Assembly: GCF_002871935.1 (NCBI RefSeq)
Contig: NZ_PNHQ01000002.1
Span: 1 to 64,000 of the forward strand
Length of the DNA stretch: 64,000 bases
Direction of reading: 5' to 3'
Origin: Aerococcus viridans
GTDB lineage: Bacteria > Bacillota > Bacilli > Lactobacillales > Aerococcaceae
Positions 34,536 through 60,715 of the stretch are shown here, one piece after another (the first letter of the stretch is position 1; every line of letters begins with the position of its first letter). Below the pieces are notes generated by a model. That model was not told where the DNA came from. It worked only from the letters and a program-made list of their open reading frames with translations, and made no database searches. A program made the translations under genes and the position numbers.

Positions 34536-34608
34536 GCCGAATTAGCTCAGTTGGTAGAGCATCTCATTCGTAATGAGGAGGTCACAAGTTCGATTCTTGC
34601 ATTCGGCA
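34536..34608 (+). tRNA. tRNA-Thr (anticodon CGT)
   Basis: 73 nt. Acceptor GCCGAAT pairs with ATTCGGC, discriminator A. The D arm has GCTCAGTTGGTAGAGC; the anticodon stem CTCAT/ATGAG encloses TTCGTAA; the T loop is TTCGATT. CCA is not encoded. Its 3' end points into the prophage, so it is the likely bacterial attachment site. Confidence 0.97.
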
Positions 34609-34972: not shown

Positions 34973-35893
34973 TTATACTGTCTTTAAATAGAGCTCGCAT
35001 GATTCTCTATCCTTGAATCCAAATTGCTTAGACTTAAATTCATTTTGACAAAGAGATTTAATAGTTTTTTTAATTGAACTAAGCTTATAATTTGGATTTA
35101 TAATTTTCATGAATTCTATAACAATAGATACAGGTACAATAACTCTGTTGGTTATTTTACCATCGCTGAAATGAAATAGATACTCTTCTATTCTATCCAT
35201 TACCGGTGGCATGGTTTTTATTTTAAAATCAACAACAGAAGAATTGTGAGCACAAATATTTCTAACCAAATGAATGCATCTAATTTTGGCTAGGAAATCA
35301 TTAGGAGTCATACCATATTCATTTGCAAGCAACTTCAAATTTTTATTTGACATATATTTCAATAGATGGATTATCTCTCCTAAAGTTAATAAATTAACAG
35401 CTAGCCAAATTGGTGGAAATATATTTTCCTTCAATTTAATTTGTAACTCGCTCGAATTAGAATTTTTTACCTTTTTAAGTAGTTTGATTTTAAACGTACT
35501 CTCTTCCATAGCAAGTTCAAATCGCTTGAAATTCTCCCGATTACACCATGAAGGGAAGTCTAAATATCCATACGCTGAATAAGTATCTCTACCTAATATA
35601 TAAGCAATCTTAGTTTTAATAGATATTTCTATTTCTTCAATCGCATGTAAGAGATGCAAACGTAAATTTTTGTCTTGATAGAAGCGCTTTAATACTTCAT
35701 CAAAATAAATACCTTGATAATCAATTTCTAACTCACCATCTATTTTGGTTGTTTTGGCAAAAACTTGAGCAGTTTCTTTTAATTTATAGTAAGAAATACT
35801 TTCTAATTTTTTTGAATCTTTTTCAAAATTATTAGATTTCATCCCTCTAGATATAAATTTACTCATTTGTTCCTGATAATTCAAATGCTCCAT
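34973..35893 (-). CDS. Abi_2 (AbiD/AbiF-like) HEPN-domain abortive infection protein
   Basis: 306 residues of the Abi_2 family. The HEPN motif RNICAHN (R211 to H216, R-x4-H) is typical of RNA-cleaving toxins; a second R-x4-H (R78 to H83, within NLRLHLLHAIEEIE) lies in the other conserved block. Family members stop phage growth by killing or arresting infected cells. The gene sits after the lysis terminator at the prophage edge and has its own promoter, a structured RNA in its 5' region, and its own terminator. It is lower in GC than the phage late genes, as usual for cargo genes. GAGG is 6 bases before the ATG. Confidence 0.88.
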   Translation of the reverse strand: MEHLNYQEQMSKFISRGMKSNNFEKDSKKLESISYYKLKETAQVFAKTTKIDGELEIDYQGIYFDEVLKRFYQDKNLRLHLLHAIEEIEISIKTKIAYILGRDTYSAYGYLDFPSWCNRENFKRFELAMEESTFKIKLLKKVKNSNSSELQIKLKENIFPPIWLAVNLLTLGEIIHLLKYMSNKNLKLLANEYGMTPNDFLAKIRCIHLVRNICAHNSSVVDFKIKTMPPVMDRIEEYLFHFSDGKITNRVIVPVSIVIEFMKIINPNYKLSSIKKTIKSLCQNEFKSKQFGFKDRESCELYLKTV

Positions 35894-55484: not shown

Positions 55485-56398
55485 GAGTCCTCCATCAACT
55501 CTTCTTCATCCGGTACATAAGTAGAACGGCAACTATAGTGAGCTGGTAGAATCGGATTTTTAATAACGTCTTCAATACTGTATAGTTTGTCCTCTTTATG
55601 GATTTCCTTACAGATATCAGAAGTACGTTCATCCATGTGTACATGTATTCTGACACCTTTTAATCCTGCATCATTGTATCTTTTTAAAGTTGCATTGTTG
55701 ATAACCATAGAGCCATCTGTTCGTACCAGTGTTTCAGCTCTATGCTGGGCGACTGTGAACCTATCTCGTAACTCTCTAGCTACTACTCTTGGGTTTTCGC
55801 CTCTTACTAACATCTTCGACAAAGCTTTACGTAGCGACTTTGCTAGATTATCAGTATTCCCCCATAACTGTTCTGAATAGTTATAACCTTGAAAGGGTGT
55901 TCTGATAAGTTGCTGTAGCGCCGGCTCATTTAAAGTACCCGCTGACCGTCCACCTAGAATCTTTCTGTATGAGTGTCCTGCAAGCTTTTTGAGATATCGC
56001 TCAAATTCATTATTAACTGCTAGAGCTAGTAGCGCTGCATTATAAGTAAGTTGTAAATTTAAAGCGTCCAATCTAGTAGCTTTACTTGATACATACTGTT
56101 CATTCAACCTATCTAGTAACTCAGGGTCTTTTTCAGCACTTACTCGGTATAATTCTGCATTTCTCCTATAGTCTGATAAATCCGTGCCTCTTAAACGCTC
56201 TTTAGCCTGTTGAAGTGTAAGCCCATTTTCATCTGCATATTTGCCGTAAAAAGTGAATATCTCTTTCTGCAGTTCGACCGCATACTCACCATATAAATCG
56301 GCTAATAGCTTGAAAAAATCGATATCCTTGCGGTCTGCATAAGCCATGAGCTCAGATGTACGTCTTTGCCAGTATTCCCTATGCTTCTTGTTCGTCAT
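55472..56398 (-). CDS. minor head protein, SPP1 gp7/Mu F family
   Basis: 308 residues. The C-terminal domain has the family pattern: RFTVAQHRAETLVRTDGS, HVHMDERTSDICKEIH, ILPAHYSCRSTYVP. It binds inside the head near the portal and takes part in DNA entry. ATG at 56398 follows AGGTGAAG and overlaps the portal gene; a GTG at 56407 is possible. Confidence 0.9.
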   Translation of the reverse strand: MTNKKHREYWQRRTSELMAYADRKDIDFFKLLADLYGEYAVELQKEIFTFYGKYADENGLTLQQAKERLRGTDLSDYRRNAELYRVSAEKDPELLDRLNEQYVSSKATRLDALNLQLTYNAALLALAVNNEFERYLKKLAGHSYRKILGGRSAGTLNEPALQQLIRTPFQGYNYSEQLWGNTDNLAKSLRKALSKMLVRGENPRVVARELRDRFTVAQHRAETLVRTDGSMVINNATLKRYNDAGLKGVRIHVHMDERTSDICKEIHKEDKLYSIEDVIKNPILPAHYSCRSTYVPDEEELMEDSWES

Positions 56399-57899
56399 CT
56401 TCTTCACCTACAATTTCGATTGGGCGCCTTAAAGGAGGCTCAGAGTCACTATCAGGGTCTTCACGAGCGACACGTTCTATCTCATCGCCAGCTTTAACCC
56501 CAGTAACCTGCTCAAGCATATCAAATACGGTTTCATCAGATACACGACCAAATAGCATATTTGCATTTTGGATTGTTTCAGTTACTGATTTAGGAATATT
56601 TGGTGTGAACTTGAATTTTAGCTTATCTAAATCAAAATCCTTAAAGGTCTTATTTTTCAAGAATTTCTCCATGGTAACTAATAAGCTATATCGCTGTTTT
56701 AATGATTCTTCAAATAGCGCTTGTGTTTCACTCATCTCTTGGTCAAGTGAAGACATCTTATATTTCATTGCCTCACCTGAAGTCGTACCACTAAAGTGCT
56801 CATCAGTAGAATTTGGTGTTGACGTGAACTTATGGATATCGTCTCCAATGCGAGTCTTATACGCTTCAGTACCTGATACGTCATACTGCTTGTACTTGTA
56901 ATCGGCACTGACTGAAGCCTCATCACCCTGCTGGTTCAATGCTCCTGCAAGATTCATCATTCGTGCTCGTTTCATTTCCCGCATATAAGCTATCTGCTTT
57001 TCAGCGGTATCACAGTCAGACGGAAACTCAACTCGCCCAAAAATAAACAGGATAGCATCTGATAAGTCCTGCATGTAATTCGCTGTATCAGACTGAGCGC
57101 TATCATATAAATCAATTAAAGCTAAGACTAACTCATAGTCGCCTAGGCCATCCAAATTGTTCCGATGTTCAATAATCGGCACTTGGCCAAATCTGTGTTT
57201 TTCAGGACTACCTTTTAACTCAACTAGCTTGCCTTCTGTGTAGCTATATCGATGTACCTCTGAAGCGGTATGCACTTCTACATATTCTTTATCAGCTTCA
57301 AAGATTGAGGCTTTATAGTATCGAATAGCCATTAGTGGCTTTTCTTCGATAGTTGTATCATAGATAACAAAAGTCTCTAGTGGGTCTAATCGCTTAACAT
57401 GGGTAGCCTCTTTGCTACGCCATACTACCTCAAAGGCCCTACCTGTCTTAGACATATCATTCCATAAAGTTTTATCCAGTGTTCTAAAACTATTCTGTTT
57501 TGCCATATCTTCTAAGGCTTCATCAGTATCACTATGCGTATTGTTATCTGCATATCTAGTCTGTATTGGAATACCGACTGCATACGAGCTTCTAAATACT
57601 GTGATTAACTTAGCAAAAGGGTGAGGCGCTCGATTATCTGTCATATCCTCATCATTTCGGCGTCGTGGTCCCGTTAAAACGTTGTGGTTATTTCCTTCGT
57701 AATAGTCAATCAACTCTTGCATCCGTGGTACTTGATGACGTTTATGGTGCTCAATAAACTTCTTTAGCATCTCAAAATCTTTTGCAATAATCGCTTCAGC
57801 TGATTCAGCTCGATAACGTATTCTCGATTCTCGGCTAAACCGTAATTTTAAGGTCTTTACTTGCCCGCTTGAGTCTCTAAAACTGTCATAAATTGGCAT
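56379..57899 (-). CDS. portal protein, SPP1 gp6-like
   Basis: 506 residues. Portal forms the dodecameric channel for DNA packaging. Typical parts: QELIDYYEGNNHNVL, the PFAKLITVFRSSYAVGIPI stem region, NLDGLGDYELVLALIDLYDSAQSDTANYMQDL, and a long helical C-terminal region. AGGAGG precedes the ATG. It directly follows the C-terminal part of terL. Confidence 0.94.
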   Translation of the reverse strand: MPIYDSFRDSSGQVKTLKLRFSRESRIRYRAESAEAIIAKDFEMLKKFIEHHKRHQVPRMQELIDYYEGNNHNVLTGPRRRNDEDMTDNRAPHPFAKLITVFRSSYAVGIPIQTRYADNNTHSDTDEALEDMAKQNSFRTLDKTLWNDMSKTGRAFEVVWRSKEATHVKRLDPLETFVIYDTTIEEKPLMAIRYYKASIFEADKEYVEVHTASEVHRYSYTEGKLVELKGSPEKHRFGQVPIIEHRNNLDGLGDYELVLALIDLYDSAQSDTANYMQDLSDAILFIFGRVEFPSDCDTAEKQIAYMREMKRARMMNLAGALNQQGDEASVSADYKYKQYDVSGTEAYKTRIGDDIHKFTSTPNSTDEHFSGTTSGEAMKYKMSSLDQEMSETQALFEESLKQRYSLLVTMEKFLKNKTFKDFDLDKLKFKFTPNIPKSVTETIQNANMLFGRVSDETVFDMLEQVTGVKAGDEIERVAREDPDSDSEPPLRRPIEIVGEEDDEQEA

Positions 57900-57913
57900 C
57901 TAAAGCCTCCTTT

Positions 57914-58231
57914 CTACATAATTCCTCGTGCTAACGTTGCATAACTTGCTGACTGCTTAACTGGCCTCATATCATCAGCGAATGCATATCTAGTAGCGTC
58001 AATACAATTATGAATAATAAAACCACCAGCAACTGAATAGTTGTGGTGGTTAGGTACTTCCATATTGTAAACGTCTTGTTTTCCTTTATATTTAATCGAC
58101 TTCACTTTTACGCTTTTTATGTCGGAGTTTTGCAGAGCAAGATTTTGAACAAGTTTTTGATTTTGAATATTTATTGATTCTAAATTCTTTTCCGCAATAT
58201 TCACATATTCTTGTTTCGTCATCGATTCCAC
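57914..58231 (-). CDS. terL: split intein C-half fused to the terminase large subunit C-terminus
   Basis: 105 residues. About 75 residues of intein C-half end in YNMEVPNHHNYSVAGGFIIHN, matching blocks F and G with penultimate His and terminal Asn. The C-extein follows: 30 residues beginning CIDATRYAFADDMR, the last part of TerL with the third catalytic Asp. The intein core (IKSVKVKSIKYKGKQDVYN) aligns with DnaE-type C-inteins. The start is GTG at 58231, 7 bases after GGAGG inside the HNH gene, out of frame with it. Residues 1-36 are extra and overlap the HNH coding sequence. The protein makes sense only if it trans-splices with the product of 58746-60242. Confidence 0.92.
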   Translation of the reverse strand: MESMTKQEYVNIAEKNLESINIQNQKLVQNLALQNSDIKSVKVKSIKYKGKQDVYNMEVPNHHNYSVAGGFIIHNCIDATRYAFADDMRPVKQSASYATLARGIM

Positions 58232-58700
58232 TATCTCGCCTCCATTTACTCTTGCATTTGTTAGAGCAGAACCTATTTGTTCCTGTTACTTCAGATATAT
58301 ATGTTTTTCCACATTGTTCACAAATAAATTCTTTTTCTTCATGCAATTTATCTTTAGTTTTTTCATAATGCTTTCTGTGCCATTCGCGTCCGTCTTCGCT
58401 AGAATGCCACTCTTTAGTCATTGGTCTTATTCTATCTAACAATCCATTCTCAACGTTTCTTTTGCCTGCTATTGAAGCATGGTATTTTAAATGTTCTTTT
58501 CTAGGGAGTAATTTCAGATTTTCGATATCATTATTAGATTTGTCATGGTCTACATGATGCACTTCATATCCACTTGGTATTTTGCCATTATAGAATTCCC
58601 ATACATATCTATGTAATCTTGTTCTAATTGTAGAATTTAAATAGTAACCTGTATTTTCATCTAGTGTAAATTTGATGCCGTCAAAATATTGGTATTTCAT
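58092..58700 (-). CDS. free-standing HNH homing endonuclease within the split terL
   Basis: 202 residues. An N-terminal DNA-binding-like segment (YYLNSTIRTRLHRYVWEFYNG) is followed by the HNH nuclease EVHHVDHDKSNNDIENL and KEHLKYH, then two treble-clef zinc fingers (CEQCGKTY...CSNKC and CEYCGKEF...CSKSC). It has its own TTGATA/TATAAT promoter and AAGGAAGTGA site. It presumably cuts intein-free terL genes and so spreads the split intein. Its last 47 codons overlap the start of the intein C-half gene in another frame. Confidence 0.92.
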   Translation of the reverse strand: MKYQYFDGIKFTLDENTGYYLNSTIRTRLHRYVWEFYNGKIPSGYEVHHVDHDKSNNDIENLKLLPRKEHLKYHASIAGKRNVENGLLDRIRPMTKEWHSSEDGREWHRKHYEKTKDKLHEEKEFICEQCGKTYISEVTGTNRFCSNKCKSKWRRDSGIDDETRICEYCGKEFRINKYSKSKTCSKSCSAKLRHKKRKSEVD

Positions 58701-58720
58701 ACAATCACTTCCTTTACTAC

Positions 58721-58749
58721 ATTATACAATGAATATCTTGTAGTATCAA
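58721..58749 (-). promoter_or_regulatory. promoter of the HNH endonuclease
   Basis: On the minus strand TTGATA (overlapping the TGA stop of the terL N-part), a 17-base spacer and TATAAT. The predicted start is near 58714, just before the HNH ribosome binding site. Confidence 0.7.
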
Positions 58750-60242
58750 TAAGAAACATTGATTATACGGTCATTTTCAGTTATTTCTTTTAGCTTTTTC
58801 CAACCATTTTCAGTTAAGAATAAATGTTCATCTGTCGATTGTATAGTCGTTCCGTCTTCTAATTCCAATTCATAAACATCTGCATTAGGTCTTGTCATTC
58901 TGACATCTTCAAATGCTGACAATTCTTTATTACCTGTATCAAAATTATAAGTATGTACATTTCCTTTTTTACCAACTAATTCAGATATTGGTATTTGCCC
59001 TTTATCTGTATCAACTAATGTATTCCCAACGATGCAGTGGTTATCCTTGTCTTCTAGCCGTGCTCTAGGATTACCGTCACGGTCAACCTGATAGTCTATA
59101 TTTTCAAATTCCCAAGCAATGTTCGGCGTGCGGTTAGGGTCGATGCAAATAAAATCTAAGTCATCTAACCACTGCTCACCAAACTCAACTGAGTCAGGAC
59201 CTTTCTTAACCCCAAATAGCTTCTTAAAGCCGTACTCATCTCTCATCTCAGCGTTTGACTTTGGCTCTGCGCTATCTGCATAGATATAGTCGCTCTGATA
59301 TCCTCGCTCTTTTAGAATCTTAGCAGTCTGTCTGTTACTCATTTTTTGCCCATACAGTTCATCAACCGCATAAATACCGTTCTTTTTCTTGTCATAATGC
59401 CACCGCACAAAAGCGAGTGGGTCGGTCGCATACCCATAGTCAAGACCGTTTCTAAAATTATCAAAAGTTGCTAATTGCTCATCAGTGATAGTCTCGAAAC
59501 GTAAATTATCGAACGGTACAACACCAGACCCAATCGCTTCACCTAAATACTCCCAACGATATCGGCGTTCTGAACGCTCTTTAGTGGCTTCTGCTTCTTC
59601 TATAAAGGCTTTGGCTATGAATGGGTTATCAAGGTAGGTTGAAGCGTGTACGAATGTGTTATTAGGTTGAAATTGTGTTTCATACTTCTTGTTCACCCAC
59701 GATTGTTTCCGCTTTGGTGGGTTATATGTATAAAAGAATTTATAAAAAAGACCATCAGCTAATTCACCACGTAAAAGTGAGTTAGTAATGGTCTTTACTT
59801 CATCTTCAGTTTTAAATTCTGCCAACTCTTCTATCCAACCGATTGCAAAAGGGAATTGACTATCTTTTAATGACTTGATTCGCTCTGGGTTTTGAGCTCC
59901 ACGAAACACAATGTAATTACCTCTAGGTTTATAAGTGATGCGCAATGGCGATTTATTAAACTTAAACAGATGCGTTACTTGCTGCTCTGCAATCGCCCAC
60001 TTTATTTGTTCGTATACAGACTGTTCTAGCGTGTTGTCTGTCTTACGTATAGCCACTCCATTTACGGCGTACCGCATAAGCATTTGCACGATGATATGTG
60101 CCACGTTTGATGACTTACCTGAACCACGTCCACCTTTACAAGCAATGTGTAATTTATTAGGATCTAATGACGCTCGCCACGCGCTATGAAAATTTGTTGG
60201 TATTAAACTGGATATTTTAATCTGTTTCGATGTCGTCAACAA
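58746..60242 (-). CDS. terL: terminase large subunit N-part fused to split intein N-half
   Basis: About 498 residues. The packaging ATPase has Walker A CKGGRGSGKSSNVA near residue 40 and Walker B FAIGWIEELAEF. The nuclease begins with the NGLDYGYATDPLAF motif and reaches ARLEDKDNH. Then the intein begins at Cys (codon 59034-59036): CIVGNTLVDTDKG (block A) and STDEHLFLTENG (block B, TxxH), ending after 96 intein residues at a normal stop. Splicing to the 57914-58231 product would join DNH to CIDATRYAF and give a TerL of about 432 residues. The start is likely TTG at 60242, 8 bases after GGAGG; the frame continues to GTG 60251. Confidence 0.93.
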   Translation of the reverse strand: MLTTSKQIKISSLIPTNFHSAWRASLDPNKLHIACKGGRGSGKSSNVAHIIVQMLMRYAVNGVAIRKTDNTLEQSVYEQIKWAIAEQQVTHLFKFNKSPLRITYKPRGNYIVFRGAQNPERIKSLKDSQFPFAIGWIEELAEFKTEDEVKTITNSLLRGELADGLFYKFFYTYNPPKRKQSWVNKKYETQFQPNNTFVHASTYLDNPFIAKAFIEEAEATKERSERRYRWEYLGEAIGSGVVPFDNLRFETITDEQLATFDNFRNGLDYGYATDPLAFVRWHYDKKKNGIYAVDELYGQKMSNRQTAKILKERGYQSDYIYADSAEPKSNAEMRDEYGFKKLFGVKKGPDSVEFGEQWLDDLDFICIDPNRTPNIAWEFENIDYQVDRDGNPRARLEDKDNHCIVGNTLVDTDKGQIPISELVGKKGNVHTYNFDTGNKELSAFEDVRMTRPNADVYELELEDGTTIQSTDEHLFLTENGWKKLKEITENDRIINVSY

Positions 60243-60639
60243 ACTGCACACCTCCAGATAATTCGATTTCTTGTTTTTCAGAAGGATACAACCCTTCTAA
60301 TTTGTTTAACTCTTGAATAGTATTCACGAAAGCAGTTGATGTTCCTTGACGAACGTACCCTTCATCATCTTGTTCAATAGACATTTTCGACTGTTCTTTA
60401 AGCCAAATAAGGTCGTTTATAGCCTGTTCTCTTGTCCAAAGTGCTTTTGCTTTATGTTCACTCATCAACTCGTTGTACCTTACCAAAACCTTATCTTTTT
60501 TTAGTAATGCACTAGCTTTTACATCAACTGTCGAATCCTTCCACTTAGTAGAATTTGGGTAGGCTTCACGATACGATTTTCTTTGTGATAGCCCAGCTAC
60601 CAACCCTTGTACATATTTTTCTTCTCTTGTAGTCAGCAC
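60217..60639 (-). CDS. terS: terminase small subunit
   Basis: 140 residues with the Terminase_2 N-terminal helix-turn-helix (REEKYVQGLVAGLSQRKSYREAYPNS) and a helical oligomerisation region, ending LSGGVQFVDDIETD. It recognises phage DNA for packaging. The start is GTG at 60639 after AAGGTGG; the frame extends 12 codons further without a site. It overlaps the terL start. Confidence 0.9.
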   Translation of the reverse strand: MLTTREEKYVQGLVAGLSQRKSYREAYPNSTKWKDSTVDVKASALLKKDKVLVRYNELMSEHKAKALWTREQAINDLIWLKEQSKMSIEQDDEGYVRQGTSTAFVNTIQELNKLEGLYPSEKQEIELSGGVQFVDDIETD

Positions 60640-60669
60640 TAGACCACCACCTTTCTTTACAAAATAAAA

Positions 60670-60715
60670 AGCCACCCGCCACTAGTAAGTGTGCCTATTA
60701 AAAGACTGGGTAGCT
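60670..60715 (-). terminator. intrinsic terminator at the end of the leader RNA
   Basis: On the minus strand AGCTACCC pairs with GGGTGGCT (one G-U), with an inner GGC/GCC hairpin, followed by TTTTTATTTTG. It lies about 20 bases before the terS ribosome binding site, so late gene expression must read through it. Confidence 0.75.

Follow-up and report, generated by a model that had tools for sequence, protein, structure and literature searches.

A phage terminase gene divided by a split intein in Aerococcus viridans, with its C-terminal half starting inside an HNH endonuclease gene

RESULTS

Organization of the broken terL locus

We analysed a 64,000-nucleotide stretch of Aerococcus viridans DNA (assembly GCF_002871935.1, contig NZ_PNHQ01000002.1, positions 1 to 64,000; hereafter the window), where the gene of the terminase large subunit (terL) of a prophage lies on the minus strand in two frames around an endonuclease gene. 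The features, from 5' to 3' on that strand, are the following.

60217–60675 (−): terminase small subunit, upstream neighbour (phrog_1595, E 1.4e-36)
58746–60251 (−): frame of the TerL N-part plus Int-N, 501 aa from the GTG at 60251
59037–60251 (−): TerL N-extein, 405 aa, ending in DKDNH; ATPase and most of the nuclease (Terminase_3, Terminase_3C)
58746–59036 (−): Int-N, 96 aa plus stop TGA (58746–58748); Cys1 at 59034–59036, block B TDEH (intein_Nterm, Intein_splicing)
58721–58749 (−): candidate promoter-like element TTGATA-17-TATAAT over the Int-N stop, 5' of the HNH gene, 11/12 consensus
58092–58700 (−): free-standing HNH_3 endonuclease gene, 202 aa, with Cys-rich C-terminal segments (HNH_3, E 1.1e-18)
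58239–58243 (−): GGAGG within the HNH gene, 7 nt 5' of the C-half GTG, read from the sequence (−9.7 kcal/mol)
57914–58231 (−): C-half frame, Int-C plus the last 30 TerL residues, 105 aa
58007–58231 (−): C-half leader plus Int-C, 75 aa, ending in HN (intein_Cterm); 58092–58231 overlaps the HNH gene in another frame
57914–58006 (−): C-extein, with Cys+1 (codon 58004–58006), the last 30 TerL residues (CIDATRYAF...) and the stop; seam match to Javan199 TerL and 2wbn
56379–57899 (−): SPP1-type portal protein, downstream neighbour (SPP1_portal, E 3.2e-101)

These data confirm the earlier observation that a split intein, accompanied by an HNH gene, divides terL here. The initial annotation had given the N-terminal half as 58746–60242; its stop and content stand, while the start moves to the GTG at 60251, 60242 being a later start. 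The C-terminal half lies where it had been placed, at 57914–58231, and consists of Int-C ending in HN followed by the Cys and 30 TerL residues. The genes also occur in a second record, IMGVR 2811995194 (identity 100% for the N-half, 100% for HNH and 99% for the C-half), which may be one and the same genome as the window. Near the lysis end of the prophage, a gene at 34973–35893 (−) matches an abortive infection resistance protein (phrog_2158, E 1.1e-55), and a tRNA-Thr gene (34536–34608) lies close to it.

Intein halves and splice residues

The N-half matched Terminase_3 (E 1.5e-46), Terminase_3C (E 1.7e-16) and Intein_splicing (39 bits, cut-off 35.8) in Pfam, and the C-half reached 29.4 bits with Intein_splicing, below the same cut-off. 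With the NCBIfam profiles, both halves passed: intein_Nterm gave 34.6 bits on the N-half (cut-off 24.5) and intein_Cterm 23.1 bits on the C-half (cut-off 15.6). The Hint-type profile check proposed earlier is therefore positive on both sides with NCBIfam and on the N-half alone with Pfam. Int-N also matched the solved inteins NrdJ-1, DnaB and DnaE, and a profile of the C-half family matched DnaE-type inteins and one DnaX intein.

The splice residues that had been listed from the sequence (Cys1, TxxH of block B, the block F His, the penultimate His, the terminal Asn and Cys+1) were all found, as Cys1, TDEH, HHNY, GGFIIHN and Cys+1. Cys1 and the T and H of block B are invariant in 19/19 N-parts, and H74 and N75 (window numbering) in all 18 C-halves aligned. 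Blocks A and B lie on one polypeptide and F and G on the other, each with its catalytic residues, as in a natural split intein; profiles and coordinates agree with the earlier placement of the break, and of the HNH gene, between blocks B and F. Two features count against the main reading: the window C-half stays under the Pfam cut-off, and its leader of ∼34 residues is long for a natural Int-C.

The seam falls in a conserved motif of the TerL nuclease

The TerL of Streptococcus phage Javan199, which is free of inteins, is 83% identical to the window N-extein over 397 residues and continues without a break through the seam, where it reads DKDNH-T-IDATRYAFADDMR. The window C-half reads CIDATRYAFADDMR at this point, identical to Javan199 TerL at 13/16 positions. 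The terminase nuclease structure 2wbn, which we take to be SPP1 G2P, also has DKDNHTIDATRYAF at the seam motif. The seam is thus the conserved motif DKDNH^(T/C)IDATRYAF of the TerL nuclease, and the acid of IDATRY is presumably the third metal-binding residue of that nuclease. The alignment with an intein-free terL that had been suggested bears out the claim that joining the halves restores the third nuclease motif, Javan199 TerL and 2wbn both running through it. At the DNA level, intein-free terL genes stopped matching at the N-extein end (59037) in 14 of the 20 phage matches listed (of 100), at query position 1638 or 1639, which is the splice point.

The C-half starts inside the HNH gene

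The HNH gene begins 45 nt beyond the Int-N stop in the window. Its own ATG has a predicted ribosome-site energy of −9.3 kcal/mol (locus L001 is the same sequence). Int-C starts within the 3' end of this gene, in another frame and 7 nt past the GGAGG, and the two genes overlap by 140 nt. The endonuclease had been described as a separate gene: it is an HNH_3 gene with its own start, but it is not disjoint from the C-half. This overlap and the wider family described below are additions to the initial annotation.

The same layout was observed elsewhere. Among the fractured loci, 17 have an HNH start, and in each of these the strongest ribosome site for Int-C places its start 20–140 nt inside the HNH gene. 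For 18 loci, BL3 included, the median energy of the Int-C ribosome sites was −7.6 kcal/mol, compared to −3.1 kcal/mol for 502 control stretches from the same genes (P 2e-10, with loci treated as unrelated); 12/18 loci had sites of −7 kcal/mol or stronger, compared to 2.6% of the controls. A programmed frameshift joining the halves was also considered and ruled out: the Int-C frame holds 11 stops across the window HNH gene, and therefore no single frameshift joins the halves.

As for transcription, promoter-like sites in the window region showed no excess (10 found, 9.3 expected). The candidate 5' of the HNH gene has a matched-background P of 0.06 in the window. A suitable gap is present in 10 of 18 loci, for which the combined P is 0.007; three near-copies among them speak against a promoter. 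A promoter of its own for the HNH gene is suggestive only.

Fractured relatives and a census of the family

The C-half matched 15 database proteins and the Int-N region 13, the window's own included in each case; one match, P0024, is a contiguous mini-intein flanked by TerL. We scanned virus contigs with the C-half, the C-half alignment and the HNH protein (in the HNH scan, the best 80 of 81 loci), and genome contigs with the C-half alignment, which gave one locus. The three forward frames of loci L001–L115 and of the window were then searched with Int-N, Int-C and HNH profiles. After removal of loci with identical HNH stretches, 86 loci with an HNH match remained (again with the best 80 of 81 from the HNH scan). 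Among these, 29 were nested (Int-N and Int-C in one open frame and HNH in another), 18 fractured or split, 3 had the HNH in frame, 28 had no intein seen and 8 were partial. TerL-like flanks were present in one of the three in-frame loci, L009. Four further loci had an intein without an HNH match, split in L022 and contiguous in L020, L013 and L034.

Terminase_3 was found in 18 of the 19 first parts submitted to Pfam, namely 17 of the 18 unique fractured or split loci (L058 standing for L057), L022, and L003 (the window's copy, standing for L001). For 32 nested frames (28 of the 29 nested loci, without L087, and four from phage records), Pfam gave Intein_splicing in 32/32, Terminase_3 in 19 and Terminase_6N in 18. 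HNH genes of the window's family also stand beside terL genes without an intein profile match, in 10 well-covered loci.

Named phages are part of this family. Lactobacillus phage CL2 has the same arrangement as the window, CL2_2 being TerL with Int-N and CL2_3 the HNH protein; between its annotated HNH and portal genes lies an unannotated frame of Int-C and the TerL C-terminus (L012:2487–2771). In the accessible part of a review, CL2, which we equate with the CL2 record by name and host, is counted with titres among the phages infective for L. casei/paracasei (PMC6563197).

In Brochothrix phage BL3, Int-N ends gp2 and Int-C lies in gp3, 9 nt apart. The other frame there retains the Cys-rich C-terminal part of the HNH protein (window HNH residues 132–193) and no nuclease core. 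To judge from the frames, the tail of the BL3 Int-N product and the leader of the Int-C product both come from the HNH 3' end, read out of frame. A search for literature on phage BL3 found no paper.

In Exiguobacterium phage vB_EauM-23 (L121:1059–3240), terL ends in NNHSMAA at the same motif, and next to it comes an HNH gene belonging to this family; 5' of the portal gene the DATRY end of TerL recurs, with no intein profile match. This terL possibly carries an intron, and Rfam found none there.

Nested relatives with the HNH gene out of frame across an open intein

Searching phage records with the HNH protein, we obtained 20 matches and examined 12 of them. Seven of the other eight are copies of examined ones or of CL2 or BL3, and PhiSTP1 was left out. 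Four of the 12 were nested: Acinetobacter phage vB_AbaM_Highwayman, Tetrasphaera phage TJE1, Rhodobacteraceae phage LS06-2018-MD07 and an unverified faecal clone. The region is annotated as a single terminase gene in the first three. Profile searches found no Int-N/Int-C pair around an HNH gene in the remaining 8 of the 12. With the 29 unique loci, these records (L117:888–3170, L119:993–3179, L120:1119–3167, L128:1044–3275) have an out-of-frame HNH gene across an open intein, mostly in terL. The window itself is not wholly nested, given its 11 stops and an overlap confined to the 3' 140 nt.

We shuffled synonymous codons of the HNH stretch in 47 unique loci with all three parts. Open intein frames were expected in 1.7 loci and observed in 29, a number reached in 0/20000 simulations (loci treated as unrelated). 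Per locus, the fraction open by chance was up to 0.21 in the nested loci of this set; among the phage records it was 0.48 for TJE1, 0.31 for L120 and 0.0006 for Highwayman. For single loci the test is weak, particularly in GC-rich cases, and it draws its strength from the total and from Highwayman. The HNH match of L087 is weak (E 6e-6), and in L062 (2365–3015) a stop breaks the HNH frame while the intein frame is open; without these two, 27 of 45 loci are nested.

A control of stop density used genes covering at least 120 profile positions, with 4 nested, 2 fractured and 18 intein-free loci too short or low-scoring. In the +1 frame, 24 of 25 nested genes had no stops, the exception being L082. 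The density was 3.0–9.9 per 100 codons in 16 fractured genes (upstream of Int-C) and 2.1–5.9 in 10 genes without an intein. L082 (1918–2424) is the sole well-covered nested locus with the other relative HNH frame, having no stops in +2 and 8.1 per 100 codons in +1, and is perhaps of separate origin.

In Acinetobacter phage vB_AbaM_BP10 (L118:2387–3028), an HNH gene of this family lies directly 5' of terS in a stretch with no intein profile match; the same HNH family is thus found upstream of terS in BP10 and across the terL intein in Highwayman.

Mobility and origin of the split

For 35 of the 47 loci, Int-N distances correlated with HNH distances at r 0.60; the correlations of Int-N and of HNH with the TerL part were lower, at 0.41 and 0.45, respectively. 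The loci L008 and L040 are 67% identical in Int-N and 71% in HNH, and 29% in the TerL part. These values suit lateral movement of the Int-N/HNH/Int-C block, and homing itself may have driven it. Cutting of the element-free allele by the HNH enzyme is putative, the indirect indication being that intein and HNH are common to dissimilar TerLs.

Nested HNH genes, fractured genes and splits without HNH read as neighbouring states of one family. Split inteins may have been born by frame overlap: a nested HNH gene would be followed by stops in the intein frame, an Int-C restart within HNH and the locking of its 3' end under an essential start. In this scheme, to which we give an even chance, Highwayman and TJE1 would represent the nested stage, the window the fractured stage, and BL3 the stage with the nuclease lost and the gene permanently split.

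The frame of Int-C relative to HNH is the same in 17/18 fractured or split loci (the exception being L021) and in 27/29 nested ones (exceptions L082 and L087). We do not rely on this preference to prove that fractured loci descend from nested ones, because the third frame is dense in stops anyway. On an HNH tree (55 rows, midpoint root; L019 coded as fractured, and L046 and L090 as nested though partial), nested loci are spread over several parts, the nested state requiring 7 changes and the fractured state 5; 24 of the 52 inner branches are open and the bootstrap is unsettled.

DISCUSSION

Our main reading, with a probability of about 0.88, is that the halves of a split intein flank the HNH gene and that the two TerL products are predicted to be trans-spliced into one packaging motor. 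Int-N and Int-C would associate, Cys1 and Cys+1 would perform splicing of the ordinary type (class 1), and ligation would add the last 30 TerL residues together with the third metal-binding acid; DNA cutting during packaging would hence depend on splicing. Without the IDATRY strand, TerL should have no active nuclease, and trans-splicing would be the simplest means of survival for such a phage. The case for packaging by trans-splicing is strengthened because CL2, a phage described as infective, shares the arrangement. The HNH enzyme, in turn, would cut intein-free terL at the DKDNH^xIDATRY motif, and the entire Int-N/HNH/Int-C block would be copied into the cut gene. Because the Int-C start sits inside the HNH gene, the HNH 3' end could probably not be lost without loss of TerL, and this lock would tie a selfish gene to an essential one. 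BL3, which has no nuclease core and has kept the HNH 3' end, fits such a lock-in.

No activity is known for the prophage in the window, and its terL might be dead, a decayed prophage gene with an intein interrupted by an endonuclease gene. Against this, the frames are open, the splice residues are conserved and the ribosome site is well placed; moreover, there are 18 unique fractured or split loci, and CL2, described as infective, is arranged alike. We consider decay improbable. The same small probability goes to the view that Int-N and Int-C merely hold the TerL parts together without splicing. Split intein halves do bind tightly, but binding alone would not need Cys1, the block B T and H, or the terminal His-Asn, all kept across the aligned family.

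Marginally less probable again is an intron carrying the HNH gene, with the TerL parts joined at the RNA level. Such a reading would accommodate the loci where an HNH gene of this family neighbours a terL lacking an intein match (the 10 well-covered loci and EauM-23), but intein profiles pass on either side of the break, and RNA splicing would leave intein residues in TerL or have to match the intein borders exactly. Rfam searches found no group I or II intron in 57500–60700 (E 10), none in 17 loci at the gathering score and none in 8 loci at E 0.5. A divergent intron may escape Rfam, because EauM-23, broken at the same motif without an intein match, also gave none, and a very divergent intron beyond its detection in the window terL keeps a slight probability. 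The least credible view, that a sequencing or assembly error split a contiguous intein of the kind present in L020, L013 and P0024, is countered by the 11 stops across HNH, by a start and ribosome site for each frame and by recurrence of the arrangement in unrelated contigs.

In a fractured gene, a split intein divides a phage gene in two, and a free-standing gene for a homing endonuclease separates the parts. The window terL has this form: a conserved gene lies in two frames via a split intein, and a free-standing endonuclease gene stands between. Dassa et al. (2009) reportedly listed enzymes of DNA synthesis and repair among such genes; unlike these, the window gene serves packaging, its endonuclease is HNH_3 and not Vsr-like, and the Int-C start lies within the endonuclease gene, out of frame with it.

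Like AceL-TerL and GOS-TerL, which the available text describes as atypically split with Int-N pieces of 25 and 37 residues (PMC11766414), the window intein is naturally split and lies in the terminase large subunit. Unlike them, it has an Int-N of 96 residues and is split between blocks B and F, and so is not of the short-Int-N type seen in that text. For Pseudomonas phage MIJ3, a PolB split intein is described whose halves flank an HNH gene (PMC6892783), the same plan in a different host gene; the accessible part of that paper describes no overlap. A literature search for out-of-frame endonucleases in inteins gave one paper to the point, on the ShiLan domain, an HNH concealed out of frame within a phage methylase; according to the accessible text, there is no intein or intron there (PMC11855218). 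In both ShiLan, so described, and our nested relatives, the HNH is out of frame over an insertion open in the host frame. Unlike ShiLan, the nested relatives are inteins (Intein_splicing in all 32), and the window is fractured rather than nested.

The finding places a packaging motor gene among fractured genes, likewise in the named phages CL2 and BL3 (the latter without an intact HNH). Since named phages share the split, it becomes possible to test whether virion formation depends on trans-splicing. The nested relatives suggest a concrete path by which an ordinary intein could become a split one, and a reason why the endonuclease gene would be hard to purge. The canonically split TerL inteins of many phages may also provide new tools for trans-splicing.
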